NCBI GenBank assembly: GCA_945888325.1
Contig: CAMDAC010000003.1
Location: forward strand, 124,001 to 188,000
DNA from: Candidatus Sulfopaludibacter sp. SbA3
GTDB taxonomy: Bacteria; Pseudomonadota; Alphaproteobacteria; Caulobacterales; Hyphomonadaceae
Length of the DNA stretch: 64,000 bases
Direction of reading: 5' to 3'
In this document: positions 33,233 through 51,831 of the stretch, in pieces
Layout of the letters: each line of letters starts with the position of its first letter
How positions within the stretch are numbered: position 1 is the stretch's first letter
Made by a program: the position numbers and the translations under genes
Notes under the pieces: generated by a model
Seen by the model: only the letters and a program-made list of their open reading frames with translations
Databases searched by the model: none
What the model was told of the DNA's origin: nothing

Positions 33233-34465
33233 CTAGAACAGTCCTCGCGAGGAAAGTTTCTCGTCCTGGTGCAGGTGGGCCGACAGGATCAACCCGAAAC
33301 AGGCCATCACGGTGATCAACGCGGTGCCGCCATACGAGATCAGCGGCAGCGGCATGCCCAGCACCGGCAGCAGGCCCAGCACCATGCCGCTGTTGAAGAT
33401 CGCGAAGAAGGCAATCGTCGAGGTCGCGCCGATCGTGGCGAGGCGGCCAAACCAGCTCTTGTTGCGCGCCGCCACCCGGAACGACCAGACGAACAGGAAA
33501 GCGAACACCGCGAGCAGGCCAACCGCGCCAATGAATCCGAATTCCTCGGCGATGATCGTCAGGATGAAGTCGGTCTGCTGCTCGGGCACGTATTCCTGCT
33601 GGGACTGGATGCCCTGCAGGTATCCCCGTCCGCTGAACCCGCCGGCGCCGATGGCGATCTTCGCCTGTTCGATCTGGTAGCTTTCGCCGAGCCCGTTGGT
33701 TGCCTCGCCGGTGATCCCGGCGATCAGCGTATCGACGCGCTCGCGCTGGTAAGGCTCCAGCACGAAGGTATAGATGGCGGGAACCGACAGCAGGCCGATG
33801 CCGATGGCGGCCGCGACCCAGCGCATGGCGATACCGGCAAAGAAGATGATCATCGCGCCCGAGGCGGCCAGCGCCAGGGCGGTCGACAGGTTCGGCTGCT
33901 TGAACACCAGCGCCGCCGGGACCAGCATGATCAGCAGAGCGCCGCCATGCACCAGCAAGGGCGGGCTCTGGCCATTGGTCGGCATCATGCGCTGATAGTA
34001 GCTGGCGAGCGCCATCGTCACGGCGAGCTTTGCCGGCTCGGACGGCTGCAGGATGATCGGCCCGACCTTCAGCCAGCGCGCCGCGCCGCCGCCCATCACG
34101 CCGAAGAAATCGACCATCACGAGCAGCACGATCACCACGGCATAGGCCGGCCAGGCAAAGCGCGCCCAGATGCCGAGCGGCAGCAGCGCGAGGCAGATCA
34201 TCAGCACAAAGCCGACGCCAAGACGCGTGATCTGGTCACGCCAGAGGTCGGCTTCGTCCGGCGACGGCGCCTGCGCGACGGGGTCCCAGCCGACCGAGAA
34301 CAGCATCGCCACGCCGGTCAGACCGACGCCGACGATCAGCAGGATGATGCTCCACGGCAGGCGCGCAATGGCGCCAAACGGGCCGAAATTCGCAAAGTGC
34401 AGCGCGCGCGCCGTCGGGGTGCGCGCTTCGCCGCGGGTATAGCCGGTAAAGCCTTCGCGGCTCAT
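33233..34465 (-). CDS. rodA: Rod-shape-determining peptidoglycan polymerase RodA
   Basis: A 410-residue SEDS family glycosyltransferase with about ten membrane segments. GATGxGxGSxxGRGxxxG-like IAIGAGGFSGRGYLQGIQSQ, the EEFGFIGAVG motif and the C-terminal GMPLPLISYGGTALIT are SEDS hallmarks. It polymerises glycan strands together with PBP2 in the elongasome. Its ATG overlaps the mrdA stop, making it the last gene of mreB-mreC-mreD-mrdA-rodA. The cytoplasmic N-terminal extension of about 35 residues is longer than in E. coli. Confidence 0.95.
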   Translation of the reverse strand: MSREGFTGYTRGEARTPTARALHFANFGPFGAIARLPWSIILLIVGVGLTGVAMLFSVGWDPVAQAPSPDEADLWRDQITRLGVGFVLMICLALLPLGIWARFAWPAYAVVIVLLVMVDFFGVMGGGAARWLKVGPIILQPSEPAKLAVTMALASYYQRMMPTNGQSPPLLVHGGALLIMLVPAALVFKQPNLSTALALAASGAMIIFFAGIAMRWVAAAIGIGLLSVPAIYTFVLEPYQRERVDTLIAGITGEATNGLGESYQIEQAKIAIGAGGFSGRGYLQGIQSQQEYVPEQQTDFILTIIAEEFGFIGAVGLLAVFAFLFVWSFRVAARNKSWFGRLATIGATSTIAFFAIFNSGMVLGLLPVLGMPLPLISYGGTALITVMACFGLILSAHLHQDEKLSSRGLF

Positions 34466-36408
34466 ACAGGATCTCCGTCCGGCTTTCCGTCCGTAGACGG
34501 TGTGACGGACGCGCGTTTGGCATAAACAGGCGTGCGCCCGCTATCCATCTTGATCGCGGCGGCGAGAATGTCCCGGCCTACAGGCGCTGCGGTGCGCGAG
34601 CCGCCCTCGCCATGCTCGACGATGACCGAGACGGCATAGCGCGGATTGTCGGTCGGCGCGTAGGCGACGAACAGGGCGTGGTCACGCAGTTCGCGCGCAA
34701 TCGACGCGCCGCCGCGAATGCCCTTTGCCCGCTCCTCAGCCGAAATCCGGCGGACCTGCGCAGTGCCGGTCTTGCCCGCAAGGCGCGGGCCGCCGAGGCC
34801 GAGATCGCCGGAGCGGTAGCCTGTACCGCCGGGCTCCGACGTCACACCGTACATGCCGGCCTTCTGGATTTCCATGATGGCGGGGTCGAGCGGCGCGTCC
34901 AGCATCTTGTCTTCGTCCGAGGGCGGACCGAATCCGATCAGCTTGGGCTTCAGCGGCGCACCGGTGGCGGCGATCCGCGCGGTCATCAGCGCCAGCTGCA
35001 GCGGCGTCACGCCAAGCTGTCCCTGCCCGATCCCGAAGTTCAGCGTCTCGCCTTCGAACCAGGGCTCGCCCCGCGCTTTCAGTTTCCAGGCGGGATCGGG
35101 CACCAGGCCACTGCGTCCACCGGTCATGCCGAGCACGAAGGTTTCGCCGAATCCGAACTTGTGCGCCACTTCGGCAATCTTGCTGACCCCAGTGCGCCGC
35201 GCGATCTCGTAGAAATACACGTCACAGGAATGCTTGATCCCGTTGTGCATGTTCATCGTGCCGTGGCCGCCTTTTTTCCAGCAGTGCCAGGTGCGGTTGC
35301 CGAAGCGGTATGAGCCGCCGCAGCGGACGGTGTCGGTGGTCTTGACCACCCCCGCCTCAAGCGCGGCAGTGGCGACCACCATCTTGAACGTAGAGCCCGG
35401 CGGGTAGACGCCGCCATGCGCGCGCGGATAGAGCGGCGCCATCGGGTTGTCGCGCAGTTCGGCATAGTCCTTGCCGGATATTCCGTTCACGAACGAGTTC
35501 GGATCAAAGGCCGGGGTCGAGACCATCGCCAGCACGTCGCCGGAGGCCACATCCATCAGCACGGCAGCGCCGCTTTCGCCCTCGAACCGTTCGATCGCCA
35601 CCCGTTGCAGCTCGGCATCGATGGTGACGAACAGGTCCTTGCCCGCCACGGCGGCGTTTGTGGGGTCCTGCTCCAGCTCCTGCATCGGGCGGCCATGCGC
35701 GTTGGTCACGACGCGGCGGCGCCCGGGGCGGCCTCGCAACCAGTCCTCGGCAAACCGCTCCATGCCCTGCCGGCCCACACGGATGTCCGGGTGGCGGAAC
35801 AATTCCTCGAATGTCTTCAGTTCGTCCGGCGAGCGGCCTTCGGCCAGCCGCGTCAGGTCGTCGGCGCTGGCGCGCGCGACATAGCCGAGTACGTGCGCAA
35901 AATCCCGTCCGCGCGGATAGGACCGCGTCGAGGCCATCTGCACATCGACGCCGTCCATCTCCACGGCGCGCACGCGCAGGCGCGCAAACTCCTCATAGCT
36001 CAGTTCCTGCACCACGGTGACCGGCACGAAACTCGCGCGGCGGATCCGGTTGGTCTGGATTTCCTCGAGCACGCGTTTGACGCGCGATTCCGGAAGGTCG
36101 ATGAACTTCGAGAGTTGCAGGAGTGTCGCTTCCGGATCGTCCAGCCGCTCGGGCACCACCGAAACGCGGCCAGCCTGGCGCTGCGACGCGAGCGGACGGC
36201 CGAAACGGTCAAGGATCTGCCCGCGCTCCGGCGGCGCCAGCACCAGGCGGATATGGTTCTCGTCGGCGAGCTTGCGATAATGCTCGGCCTCGAAGAATTG
36301 CAGCTGCGACAGGCGTCCTACCAGTGTGGCAAACACCGCGCCGCCAGCACCCATGGCCAGCAGCAGGCGGCGGTCAAAGTCTGCCTCCGGACTATTCTTG
36401 CGCGCCAT
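34462..36408 (-). CDS. mrdA: Penicillin-binding protein 2
   Basis: A 648-residue class B PBP, the elongasome transpeptidase. An N-terminal membrane helix near LLLAMGAGGAVFATLVG precedes the dimerisation domain (RGQILDRFGRPLA) and the transpeptidase domain with PPGSTFKM (catalytic serine and lysine), SCD and AGKTGTAQ. The C-terminus is extended with TPSTDGKPDGDP. It sits between mreD and rodA with overlapping start and stop codons on both sides, so translation is coupled. Confidence 0.96.
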   Translation of the reverse strand: MARKNSPEADFDRRLLLAMGAGGAVFATLVGRLSQLQFFEAEHYRKLADENHIRLVLAPPERGQILDRFGRPLASQRQAGRVSVVPERLDDPEATLLQLSKFIDLPESRVKRVLEEIQTNRIRRASFVPVTVVQELSYEEFARLRVRAVEMDGVDVQMASTRSYPRGRDFAHVLGYVARASADDLTRLAEGRSPDELKTFEELFRHPDIRVGRQGMERFAEDWLRGRPGRRRVVTNAHGRPMQELEQDPTNAAVAGKDLFVTIDAELQRVAIERFEGESGAAVLMDVASGDVLAMVSTPAFDPNSFVNGISGKDYAELRDNPMAPLYPRAHGGVYPPGSTFKMVVATAALEAGVVKTTDTVRCGGSYRFGNRTWHCWKKGGHGTMNMHNGIKHSCDVYFYEIARRTGVSKIAEVAHKFGFGETFVLGMTGGRSGLVPDPAWKLKARGEPWFEGETLNFGIGQGQLGVTPLQLALMTARIAATGAPLKPKLIGFGPPSDEDKMLDAPLDPAIMEIQKAGMYGVTSEPGGTGYRSGDLGLGGPRLAGKTGTAQVRRISAEERAKGIRGGASIARELRDHALFVAYAPTDNPRYAVSVIVEHGEGGSRTAAPVGRDILAAAIKMDSGRTPVYAKRASVTPSTDGKPDGDPV

Positions 36409-36959: not shown

Positions 36960-37943
36960 CTATTCGCCTCCCTGTACCGGCGTTTCCGGCAGGCGGATCA
37001 CCGGCGGGTCGGTTTCCGGTGTCACCACCGCCGCTGTAACGGGCTCGGTCACCACCGGCCGGGCCGGCGCCGGTCGCGCGGCGGGTGCGGGCTTCGCCGT
37101 CTCCACCGGGGGAACAACAATTTCCGGCACCTCAGACTCGGGCAAGGGTTCGACAATCTCGGGCGGCGCAATCATCCTGACATAGCCGCTGGCATGATCG
37201 CGCATCGCCAGTTTGACCAGCCATTCGGAGCCCTGCTTCGTCACCGTGCCGGCCACCAGGCCGCGCGGGAACGCGCCGCCTTCACCGGAGCTGAGCACGC
37301 GCTCGCCTTCAATGAAATCAGACGCTTCCGGCAGGTCCTTCAGAACGCCGCGGTCGCGGTCCTTGCCCTGCATGATGGCGCGCACGCCGCTGACTTCGCC
37401 GAGCACCGGCAACTGGCTCTGGTAGTTGGAGACCAGCAGGATGCGCGACGACCGGTCGCCGAGCTGGATGACGCGCCCGACCAGGCCGCCCTCGTTCAGC
37501 GCGACCGCGCCGGGCACGACGCCTTGCAGGCTGCCGGCATTGGCGAGCACTGTCTGGGCGAACGGGCCGTCCACCACGGTGGTGACGCGGGCGGTCACGC
37601 CTTTCTCGGGCGGCTCACCCATCAGGTTGAGAATGTTCTCGTAAGCTTCCATCCGCTCCGCCATCGAAATGGCCGCGGCCTTGTAGCGCGCGAGATCGCG
37701 CACTTCGTTTTCAAGTTCCTTGATGCGGTGTTCGCGGCCGGCCTGCCCGCTGATCTGCGCCCAGAGGCTCGTATCGGCCGGCGCGCCGATGCGGTCGCTG
37801 ATCGTGGTGCGGGCGGGCACGAAGAAATTGCTGATCTGCGGCGCCGACTGCGCCACGATCAGCGCCAGCGCACCAAAGATCAGGATGCCCAGCGTGACCC
37901 GCCGTGCGCCTGATTTCTGACTGGAACGGCCGGAACGTGCCAT
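36960..37943 (-). CDS. mreC: Rod shape-determining protein MreC
   Basis: A 327-residue bitopic protein: one transmembrane helix near residues 20-36, a periplasmic coiled coil (IKELENEVRDLARYKAA), and the beta-rich MreC core with RVTTVVDGPFAQTVLANAG and VVPGAVALNEGGLVGRV. The C-terminus carries a long proline/alanine/valine tail that is not part of the core and is probably disordered. MreC activates PBP2 in the periplasm. It lies 28 bases downstream of mreB. Confidence 0.94.
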   Translation of the reverse strand: MARSGRSSQKSGARRVTLGILIFGALALIVAQSAPQISNFFVPARTTISDRIGAPADTSLWAQISGQAGREHRIKELENEVRDLARYKAAAISMAERMEAYENILNLMGEPPEKGVTARVTTVVDGPFAQTVLANAGSLQGVVPGAVALNEGGLVGRVIQLGDRSSRILLVSNYQSQLPVLGEVSGVRAIMQGKDRDRGVLKDLPEASDFIEGERVLSSGEGGAFPRGLVAGTVTKQGSEWLVKLAMRDHASGYVRMIAPPEIVEPLPESEVPEIVVPPVETAKPAPAARPAPARPVVTEPVTAAVVTPETDPPVIRLPETPVQGGE

Positions 37944-37971: not shown

Positions 37972-39135
<1,164 letters not shown>

Positions 39136-39142
39136 TTAAATG

Positions 39143-39155
39143 GAACGTTTCGTTC
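39143..39155. promoter_or_regulatory. GAACG-N3-CGTTC dyad, copy 1
   Basis: GAACGTTTCGTTC is a perfect dyad with 5-base arms, 125 bases upstream of mreB. It is one of three copies in this region. Confidence 0.5.
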
Positions 39156-39223
39156 AATCTCGCGGAATCCCCTACCGCATCGGCGCATCACGCCCAGGAC
39201 GCCTGTCTCCACAGGGCATTGAT

Positions 39224-39238
39224 GGAACGAATCGTTCC
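39224..39238. promoter_or_regulatory. GAACG-N3-CGTTC dyad, copy 2
   Basis: GGAACGAATCGTTCC is the most symmetric copy, with 7-base arms around a central A. It contains a GANTC motif, the CcrM methylation site in Caulobacterales, so methylation could affect binding. Centre is 82 bases from copy 1. Confidence 0.55.
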
Positions 39239-39331
39239 GATTTAGTTAACAGAATAGGGGTCGACGTTAACGCTTTGGGACCCGGCGTTCACACCGTCGG
39301 GCCGGCCTGAGTCGCAAGGTGAGCGCGAAAT

Positions 39332-39344
39332 GAACGGGTCGTTC
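39332..39344. promoter_or_regulatory. GAACG-N3-CGTTC dyad, copy 3
   Basis: GAACGGGTCGTTC, with 5-base arms, lies 107 bases beyond copy 2. Like copy 2 it is followed by GGATTT or CGATTT, suggesting a conserved extended motif. Confidence 0.5.
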
Positions 39345-39498: not shown

Positions 39499-41835
39499 TC
39501 AGGCGGCGGTGACGAAGGTCGCGATGACCTTCTTGCGGCCCGTCTTGTCGAAATCGACCGTCAGCTTGTTGCCTTCGCTGAAGGCGACCTTGCCGTAGCC
39601 GAACTTGTCATGGAACACGCGCGCGCCCGCCGGGAACGAGTCCGGACCGGACGCGGTGGCGTTCAGGCCGGAGGCCTCGCGCGGCGGGGCGCCGGAGGGC
39701 CGCGTGGCATTCTCCTTGAGGCGTTTCCAGCCGGGGCTTTCATAGTTCGAGCGCTCGCCAAGGTCCTCGACCGTGCCGACAAAGGCCGATTCCGCCCCCG
39801 GTATACCGGAGTAACCGGTTTCCGAGACCGCATCGACATGCTCATGCGGCAACTCGTCGATAAACCGGCTCGGCATCACCGATTGCCAGCGGCCGTAGAT
39901 CTGGCGGTTGGCGACGAAGGAAATGTAGCAGCGCGCGCGTGCCCGGGTGATCCCGACATAGGCAAGGCGCCGCTCCTCCTCGAGGCCGCGCATCCCGCTC
40001 TCGTCGAGCGACCGCCGCGAGGGGAACACTTCTTCTTCCCAGCCAGGCAGGAACACGACCGGCCATTCAAGACCCTTGGCCCCGTGCAGCGTCAGGATCT
40101 GGACCTGGTCATCGCTGCCCGCGCCGGAGGCAGCGTCCATCACCAGTTCGACGTGCTCGAGGAAACCCGCGAGGGAATCAAACTCGCCCATGGCGCGGAC
40201 GAGTTCCTTGAGGTTGTCGAGCCGGCCCTGCGCCTGCGGGCTGCGGTCCTTCTGCAGCATGTCGGTATAGCCGGACTCCTCGAGGATCATCTCGGCGAGC
40301 TCGGTATGCGGCATGCCGCCGTTCAGCTTGTCGCGCCACATATTGATCTGGTCGATGAACACGGTCAGCCCGCGCTTCGCCCCGCCTTTGATCTCGTCGG
40401 TCTGCAGCACCATGGGCGTCAGCGTATAGAGACTGCGCCCGTCGGCCCGCGCATAGGATTGCAGCTTGGCGAGGGTCGTGTCCCCCACCCCGCGCTTCGG
40501 CTCGTTGACCACCCGCTCGAAGGCGAGGTCATCGTCCGGCGAGCGCACGAGGCGCAGGTAGGCCATGGCATCGCGGATCTCGGCGCGCTCGAAGAAGCGC
40601 GGGCCGCCGATCACCCGGTACGGGATGCCGAGCAGGATGAACCGCTCCTCGAACGACCGCATCTGCCAGGACGCGCGCACCAGCACGGCGCACTGGTCAT
40701 GCCTCCCGCCGCCGCGCACCCAGGCCTCGATATCGTCCGCGATCAGACGGCTCTCCGCCTCGCCATCCCAGAGACCGCGCACCTTCACCTTCGGCGCATC
40801 GATGTCGCTGGCCGCCGCACTGTCATCGCCGACGAACAGCGTCTTGCCAAGGCGTCCCTTGTTGTGGGCGATCACCGAGGAAGCGGCTGCAAGTATATGT
40901 TTTGTCGAGCGATAATTGCGCTCGAGCCTGACCACTTTGGCGCCCGGAAAGTCGTTCTCGAAGCGCAGGATATTGTCCACTTCGGCGCCGCGCCAGCCAT
41001 AGATCGACTGGTCGTCATCGCCCACGCAGCAGATGTTCTTCGAGCCCTGCGCGAGCAGGCGCAGCCAGAGATACTGCGCGACGTTCGTGTCCTGATACTC
41101 GTCGACCAGGATGTAGCGGAACTTCGAATGAAAATCCCGAAGCAGATCAGGGTTCTGCTGGAAGATCGTGATGTTGTGGATCAGCAGGTCGCCGAAGTCA
41201 CAGGCGTTCAGAACCTTCAGCCGTGCCTGGTAGATCTCGTAGCACTTGATGCCCTTGCCGTTGCCGAACAGCTCCGTCTCGTCGCCCGGCACCCTGTCGG
41301 GCGTCAGCGCGCGGTTCTTCCAGCCATCGATCAGGCCGGCGAGGTTGCGCGGGGTCCAGCGCTTGGGGTCGAGGTTCTCGGCCTGGACGATCTGCTTGCA
41401 CAGGCGCACCTGGTCATCGGTGTCGAGGATCGTGAAGGTCGACTTGAGGCCGACCAGTTCGGCATGCCGCCGCAGGATCTGCGCCGAGATCGAGTGGAAG
41501 GTGCCGAGCCAGCGCAGGCCCTCGCCCGCCTCGCCGAGCAGGGCGAGCGCCCGCTCGCGCATCTCCCGCGCCGCCTTGTTGGTGAAGGTCACCGTCAGTG
41601 TCTGCGAGGGGTAAGCCAGCCGCGTCGCCACGATATGGGCGAGGCGCGCCGTCAGCACCCGCGTCTTGCCGGTGCCTGCGCCCGCCAGCACCAACAGCGG
41701 GCCTTCGGTGTACAGCACGGCTTCGCGCTGTTCGGGGTTCAGCCCCTTCAGATAGGCCGCGCCCTCCGCCACCGGCTGGGGCGGACGCGCAGAGGCCATC
41801 TGGCTGATCGGGAGACGATTCGGATTGGAACTCAT
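39499..41835 (-). CDS. uvrD: ATP-dependent DNA helicase, UvrD/PcrA family
   Basis: A 778-residue superfamily 1 helicase with the full motif set: LNPEQREAV (Q motif), AGAGTGKT (Walker A, 51-58), TFTNKAAREM, DEYQDTN (Walker B), GDDDQSIYGWRGA, NYRST, LTLHGAKGLEWP and ERRLAYVGITRA. The C-terminal VFHDKFGYGKVAF is the PcrA/UvrD RNA-polymerase-interacting type domain. It unwinds DNA in nucleotide excision and mismatch repair. I call it uvrD; pcrA is the equivalent name. No LexA-type box is visible upstream. Confidence 0.94.
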   Translation of the reverse strand: MSSNPNRLPISQMASARPPQPVAEGAAYLKGLNPEQREAVLYTEGPLLVLAGAGTGKTRVLTARLAHIVATRLAYPSQTLTVTFTNKAAREMRERALALLGEAGEGLRWLGTFHSISAQILRRHAELVGLKSTFTILDTDDQVRLCKQIVQAENLDPKRWTPRNLAGLIDGWKNRALTPDRVPGDETELFGNGKGIKCYEIYQARLKVLNACDFGDLLIHNITIFQQNPDLLRDFHSKFRYILVDEYQDTNVAQYLWLRLLAQGSKNICCVGDDDQSIYGWRGAEVDNILRFENDFPGAKVVRLERNYRSTKHILAAASSVIAHNKGRLGKTLFVGDDSAAASDIDAPKVKVRGLWDGEAESRLIADDIEAWVRGGGRHDQCAVLVRASWQMRSFEERFILLGIPYRVIGGPRFFERAEIRDAMAYLRLVRSPDDDLAFERVVNEPKRGVGDTTLAKLQSYARADGRSLYTLTPMVLQTDEIKGGAKRGLTVFIDQINMWRDKLNGGMPHTELAEMILEESGYTDMLQKDRSPQAQGRLDNLKELVRAMGEFDSLAGFLEHVELVMDAASGAGSDDQVQILTLHGAKGLEWPVVFLPGWEEEVFPSRRSLDESGMRGLEEERRLAYVGITRARARCYISFVANRQIYGRWQSVMPSRFIDELPHEHVDAVSETGYSGIPGAESAFVGTVEDLGERSNYESPGWKRLKENATRPSGAPPREASGLNATASGPDSFPAGARVFHDKFGYGKVAFSEGNKLTVDFDKTGRKKVIATFVTAA

Positions 41836-50427: not shown

Positions 50428-51831
50428 TCAGGCCGGGTCGGGCCCGATCATTTTCTCCGGCCGAACGATGGCGTCGAAGTCGGCTTCGGAGATGCCGAGC
50501 GCGAGGGCTTCGACTTTCAGCGTCGTGCCGTTCTTGTGCGCGTTCTTGGCAACCTTCGCGGCGAGGTCGTAGCCGTACTTTTCCTTCAACGGCGTCACAA
50601 GCATCAGCGAGTTCTCGAGCGCGCGCTGGATATTGTCGAGCCGCGGCTCGATGCCCACCACGCAATTGTCCGTGAACGACACCGACGCATCGGCGAGCAG
50701 CTGCACCGATTGCAGGAAATTGTACGCCATCATCGGATTGAACACGTTGAGTTCGAAATGGCCCTGCGAGCCGGCAAACGCGATCGCCGCATTGTTGCCG
50801 AGGATATGCGCGCAGACCTGGGTCATCGCTTCGCACTGAGTGGGGTTCACCTTGCCCGGCATGATCGATGAGCCCGGCTCGTTCTCCGGCAGTGCCAGCT
50901 CGCCAAGTCCGGAACGTGGACCCGAGCCGAGGAAGCGGATGTCGTTGGCAATCTTGAAACAGCTCATCGCCACCGTGGTGATCGCGCCGTGCGTGAACAC
51001 CATCGCGTCATGCGCCGCGAGCGCCTCGAACTTGTTCGGGGCGGAGGTAAACTTGAGTCCCGTGATCTGCGCGATCTTGTCGGCCACCAGTTCGGCAAAG
51101 CCCGCCGGCGAGGCGAGCCCCGTGCCGACAGCGGTGCCGCCCTGCGCCAGTTCCATCAGCGCCGGCAGCGTCAGCTCGATCCGCTTGATGCCGTTCTCGA
51201 TCTGCTTTGCGTAGCCAGAGAATTCCTGACCCAGCGTGACCGGAGTCGCGTCCTGCGTATGCGTGCGGCCAATCTTGATGATCGACTTCCAGGCCTGCGC
51301 CTTGTCGTTCAGCGCATTGTGCAGCGTCTGCAGCGCCGGCAGCAGCTTGTGCACGACCTCTTCGGCGCAGGCGATGTGCATCGCGGTCGGGAACGTGTCG
51401 TTCGACGACTGGCTCATGTTGACATGGTCGTTCGGATGGACCGGCTTTTTCGAGCCCATCTCGCCGCCGAGCATCTCGATGGCGCGGTTGGAGATCACCT
51501 CGTTGGCGTTCATGTTCGACTGCGTGCCCGAGCCCGTCTGCCAGACGACCAGCGGGAAATGCGCGTTCAGCTTGCCTTCGATCACTTCGTCGGACGCCTG
51601 GATGATCACCTTACCCAGCGCCGGATCGAGCTTGCCGAGCGCCATGTTGGTCTCGGCCGCCGCCTTCTTGACGATCCCGAGCGCGCGCACGACCGGGGCG
51701 GGCTGGCGCTCCCAGCCGATCTTGAAATTCCCCAGCGAACGCTGCGCCTGCGCGCCCCAGTACTTGTCCGCCTCGACCTCAATGGGGCCGAACGTATCGG
51801 TTTCGGTGCGGGTGGGGGTCTTGGCGGCCAT
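50428..51831 (-). CDS. fumC: Fumarate hydratase, class II
   Basis: A 467-residue fumarase that hydrates fumarate to L-malate in the TCA cycle. [41 protein letters not shown] and the family signature [16 protein letters not shown] with the catalytic serine loop are all present. Length is standard (467). It is divergent from the SRPBCC-Rieske gene. Confidence 0.97.

Follow-up and report, generated by a model that had tools for sequence, protein, structure and literature searches.

Knowledge of how mreB and rodZ transcription is set in bacteria is scarce. In Escherichia coli mreB is repressed by BolA, and the LexA box of the alphaproteobacteria, which controls the SOS response, has the form GTTC-N7-GTTC. 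Budding or stalked Hyphomonadaceae serve as models for growth-mode switching. For Hyphomonas neptunium a ChIP-seq study gives TTAA-N7-TTAAC as the CtrA consensus and reports that CtrA directly controls mreB (PMC7200025). Among TetR-family proteins with a DNA structure, the closest by sequence to the candidate regulator presented below is Ms6564 of Mycobacterium smegmatis (PDB 4JL3, 4JKZ), which is described as a master regulator of DNA damage/repair genes that binds 31 bp as a dimer of dimers (PMC4150764). The locus analysed here comes from a genome that was placed in Hyphomonas (its relatives of the same genus bear that name), and a second genus of the family is Henriciella.

Palindromic sites in the mreB upstream region

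The original prediction had described three GAACG-N3-CGTTC dyads upstream of mreB in the window, that is, in the whole 64-kb stretch of DNA that was analysed, with centres 82 and 107 bases apart, in a region of about 480 bases that serves mreB alone. Coordinates, letters and both spacings were recovered exactly, and the region corresponds to the 486-bp gap from uvrD to mreB, which, as had been stated, serves no other gene than mreB. The features of the locus are as follows.

34462..36408, minus strand: pbp2/mrdA, last gene of the rod operon
36960..37943, minus strand: mreC, second gene of the rod operon
37972..39012, minus strand: mreB, the presumed regulated gene, conserved start ATG 39012
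39037..39053, no strand: weak fourth site CGGTCCGGACCGTTCCG, half-degenerate, near the mreB start (about -30), 13.2 bits
39075..39083, minus strand: predicted -10 of the mreB promoter, GCTGTGATC, a conserved alignment block
39101..39116, minus strand: CtrA box TTAA-N7-TTAAC, overlapping the predicted -35 of mreB
39143..39155, no strand: site 1 (proximal), candidate operator GAACGTTTCGTTC, 33 bp from the conserved CTTGC/-35 block of mreB, on its upstream side
39225..39237, no strand: site 2, candidate operator GAACGAATCGTTC, 82 bp from site 1
39245..39271, no strand: two GTTAAC elements, 21 bp apart, directly on the far side of site 2
39332..39344, no strand: site 3 (distal), candidate operator GAACGGGTCGTTC, in part of Hyphomonas, at variable distance
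39499-41835, minus strand: uvrD, far border of the 486-bp mreB upstream gap

The operon has the order mreB, mreC, an mreD-like gene and pbp2. For mreB the conserved ATG 39012 was taken as the start, whereas the mechanical list of open reading frames has TTG 39018. No promoter was detected for mreB in a scan with consensus promoter sequences, and the transcription start used below is a position that we infer. The weak fourth site, which is confined to the Hyphomonas clade of the source genome, and the CtrA box had both been overlooked in the original prediction. The (C/G)GATTT that had been pointed out after copies 2 and 3 is indeed present, but it is not a separate element and represents the loosely conserved outer arm of the palindrome, whose extended consensus in the site collection is nAACGGAACGnnnCGTTCCGTTn.

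The pattern GAACGNNNCGTTC was matched four times in the window compared with 0.17 ± 0.43 matches expected from shuffled sequences (four matches were never reached in 100 shuffles), so that the motif lies far above the shuffled level that had been suggested as a check; the fourth match, at 51391, is within coding sequence. In the 3.28-Mb genome 22 matches were found versus 9 with a reversed-pattern control, which indicates that about half of the genome-wide matches are background, and these background matches lie nearly all in coding frames. A plasmid search with the mreB promoter region gave no match.

A second check, on whether relatives have the motif upstream of mreB, was positive for Hyphomonas and for nearly all Hyphomonadaceae. 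Sites 1 and 2, with the core GWACG-N3-CGTWC, were present in 35/35 Hyphomonas mreB regions, and in these promoters the half-sites GWACG are nearly invariant and the three central bases are random. The two sites are separated by 82 bp in 30 of the regions and by 83 bp in the other 5, site 1 lies 141-144 bp from the mreB ATG, and the sequence CTTGC(A/T)TTAAA was found exactly 33 bp from site 1 wherever this block was read. In the alignment of the Hyphomonas mreB upstream regions the sequences diverge almost throughout, except for the palindrome cores and the promoter block. The CtrA consensus TTAA-N7-TTAAC stands between site 1 and the ATG in 35/35 regions, and in most Hyphomonas the inner GTTAAC (GTTWAC) keeps a fixed position, 11 bp ahead of the 17-bp site; the GTTAAC pair could represent extra CtrA half-sites or the sites of another factor.

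In the other genera of Hyphomonadaceae most genomes carry sites at the same mreB position, with a proximal spacing of 81-85 bp in most, 93 bp in genus g20 and 104-106 bp in most of genus g22. A site of at least 12 bits was found in 86 of 94 Hyphomonadaceae mreB upstream regions versus 0.4% expected from Markov-resampled sequence, and two or more sites in 57 of the 94, these loci being from related genomes and the counts therefore not independent trials. The exact site was found in none of 72 mreB regions outside Hyphomonadaceae and in none of 23 mreB regions from other families of the order. One genome (G081) has two mreB genes, of which one (L239) is without sites and the other (C6:45079) has an upstream site.

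Further sites at rodZ and at a TetR-family gene

Two further copies of the site, 241 bp apart, flank the start of the gene for RodZ, whose product contains the Pfam domains HTH_25 and RodZ_C. In most Hyphomonas site A falls within the 3' end of ptsP; site B, which is at the 5' end of rodZ, was seen in one clade. The arginine codon within site A is CGT in 23/23 cases, compared with less than 10% CGT among the arginine codons in the remaining part of ptsP, and the retention of this rare codon suggests that site A is under non-coding selection. When genomes were scanned with the site model, mreB and rodZ ranked first in six Hyphomonas genomes, the model having been built from those sites, and no third shared target of comparable strength was found among the best 150 first-look candidates per genome. 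An acyl-CoA dehydrogenase gene with a good upstream site (L018 3012 = G000:C19:34511, L094 and L122) was seen in three Hyphomonas genomes only and is a possible accessory target, not a core one. Likewise, in four Hyphomonas genomes (L015, L086, L101 and L123) a Bcr/CflA-like transporter gene has a site at its start or shortly before it; the N3 spacer of this site varies, and the site was rejected as a core target given its presence in few species. Sites in coding regions that are common to relatives were also discarded, as these track gene conservation.

The screen for a regulator covered the 19 TetR_N genes of the source genome and sites in their own promoters, and 1/19 had a near-consensus site. 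This gene (G000:C1:252041-252667, minus strand) encodes a 209-aa protein that matches PF00440 (TetR_N) with 39.5 bits (cut-off 24) and TetR_C_11 with 34.3 bits (cut-off 32), and the recognition helix SKQT(I/V)Y(R/K)WW is conserved across the family. Orthologues were found in 48/49 Hyphomonadaceae genomes (30/30 and 18/19) and in 0/24 genomes from four further families of the order (0/5 and 0/19), a distribution that matches that of the mreB sites. In genus g21 the distance between the TetR gene and mreB is about 9 kb, and in one further genome (G095) it is within 40 kb. In one Henriciella genome (G073, genus g15, 90% complete; mreB locus L376) two mreB sites were present and a TetR orthologue was not found, which may reflect assembly incompleteness or loss.

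A site of at least 12 bits was located directly upstream of the TetR gene in 10/30 loci (11 if counting L427, with its truncated contig); outside the upstream regions the loci comprise 87 kb, in which the one in L427 was the sole site of this strength. In a second set 4/17 TetR loci had such an upstream site and none elsewhere in those loci, so that around the TetR orthologues about 150 kb are almost free of sites apart from the TetR upstream regions. The upstream sites span six genera, although not all species: in many Hyphomonas and in genera g16, g19 and g20 the TetR promoter is without a clear site despite the sites at mreB, which indicates that autoregulation would not be universal. In Hyphomonas a beta-carbonic anhydrase gene is transcribed divergently from the TetR gene, and in genera g1, g15, g17, g21 and g22 the divergent gene occupies the carbonic anhydrase position; given this arrangement some of the sites could serve the carbonic anhydrase gene. 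In two genomes the neighbour is instead an Sbt_1 bicarbonate transporter (G102, assigned by Pfam, and G072, by sequence likeness). Both kinds of neighbour were noted for L410 and its orthologues L422 and L428.

Proposed regulation and alternative explanations

From these sequence comparisons the dyads are probably operators of a dimeric TetR-family regulator whose targets are the mre/rod operon, rodZ and, in several genera, the gene of the regulator itself. The original prediction of a regulator dedicated to the rod operon is supported by the conservation of the sites, but the target set appears wider than had been assumed: beside mreB it includes rodZ and also the TetR gene of several genera. 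One TetR dimer, or a dimer of dimers, would occupy each palindrome, and the protein would act together with CtrA, which would bind at the -35 of mreB. The centre of site 1 lies at a fixed distance of about 70-82 bp upstream of the putative mreB transcription start, and this fixed position upstream of the -35 makes contact or looping likelier than plain promoter occlusion. The regulator may thus modulate the CtrA-dependent promoter through contact with RNA polymerase or with CtrA, or by looping of the DNA that separates sites 1 and 2. DNA looping had also been proposed originally, and it fared differently for the two kinds of site pairs: the spacings of the proximal pairs tend to fall close to whole helical turns (R 0.67 for a period of 10.5 bp, a value that is sensitive to the choice of period and derives from phylogenetically non-independent spacings), whereas the distal pairs do not fit and were not significant. 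Looping between the sites is therefore only suggested.

The TetR protein would tune the mre promoter and rodZ in response to a ligand, and the carbonic anhydrase or Sbt_1 transporter gene beside it gives a hint of an inorganic-carbon signal. A speculative and, in our estimate, rather improbable extension is that this family-specific protein senses a metabolite linked to inorganic carbon and determines MreB and RodZ levels, whereby carbon supply would be coupled to elongation of the cell wall on top of the cell-cycle control by CtrA.

The sites could also be bound by another regulator, the TetR gene or the divergent carbonic anhydrase gene being a mere further target. The regulator screen was confined to the TetR family, and the divergent gene in the carbonic anhydrase position in five genera would agree with this explanation, but the site remains upstream of TetR in the two genomes where the neighbour is a bicarbonate transporter, the odd-spaced palindrome fits a TetR dimer, and the phyletic match (48/49 versus 0/24) is that of TetR; we therefore regard a different regulator as unlikely, if less so than any of the alternatives that follow. 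Since the pair of shared targets consists of rodZ and mreB, and HTH_25 in RodZ is the sole other DNA-binding-like domain in the regulon, it is conceivable that the cytoplasmic helix-turn-helix of RodZ binds the sites and autoregulates rodZ together with mreB. This is very improbable considering that the rodZ sites are patchy outside Hyphomonas and missing in most Henriciella and in more distant genera, where the mreB sites persist, and that related families have RodZ homologues without sites.

Function as RNA hairpins or terminators was judged slightly more improbable still. Two of the copies receive terminator-like scores on the plus strand, and every copy could fold into a short stem with a loop of 3 bases; against this, GAACG and GTACG halves are paired in 57/159 distinct sites, a combination that would interrupt the stem by an A-A or T-T mismatch and instead fits independent half-sites of a dimer. 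Furthermore, site 1 is located upstream of the putative promoter and no Rfam match was obtained. The mixed half-sites and the lack of an Rfam match suggest that the dyads are most likely DNA operators. Finally, most of the other copies in the genome are in coding sequence and their context is not conserved, as would be expected for background palindromes without function, but the fixed positions at mreB are kept across the family, which leaves chance with a negligible probability.

Comparison with described systems

The system is composed of parts of known kinds, namely a TetR regulator and palindromic operators. In the literature searched, which was largely that available without subscription, there was no description of the regulator, the operator or the pairing of mreB with rodZ, and no paper linking TetR to mreB or to the shape of Hyphomonas. 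With a named candidate regulator and mapped putative operators at both genes, the proposal is testable in H. neptunium, for which CtrA ChIP-seq exists.

The dyads and the LexA box have the GAAC/GTTC letters in common. The LexA box is a repeat with 7-base spacing, whereas the dyads are inverted repeats (GWAC-N5-GTWC) with 5 bases between GWAC and GTWC and do not have the direct repeat GTTC-N7-GTTC, and their presumed targets are shape genes. A LexA regulon was rejected on these grounds, and the earlier decision to set LexA aside from the spacing appears sensible. BolA of E. coli is likewise a dedicated factor for the transcriptional control of mreB, but it does not belong to the TetR proteins and does not act through a GWACG-N3-CGTWC operator.

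The control of mreB by CtrA in H. neptunium concerns the same gene and the same promoter, and the box is common to all 35 Hyphomonas regions. Given this box and the control by CtrA, the dyads would constitute a second input on a cell-cycle promoter, which as far as we have found is undescribed; the main text of the CtrA study contains no TetR or rodZ, and its passages on mreB no dyad (PMC7200025).

Ms6564 and the Hyphomonas TetR protein share their N-terminal domain, within which the recognition stretch KQTIYRWWPS is identical (E about 5e-16), and both have a palindromic DNA target, the Hyphomonas operator being a candidate. Ms6564 is tied to DNA damage/repair genes, whereas the Hyphomonas protein is linked to mreB and rodZ. 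Overall, only a portion of the protein is similar, which indicates that Ms6564 is a relative of the Hyphomonas regulator and not its orthologue.
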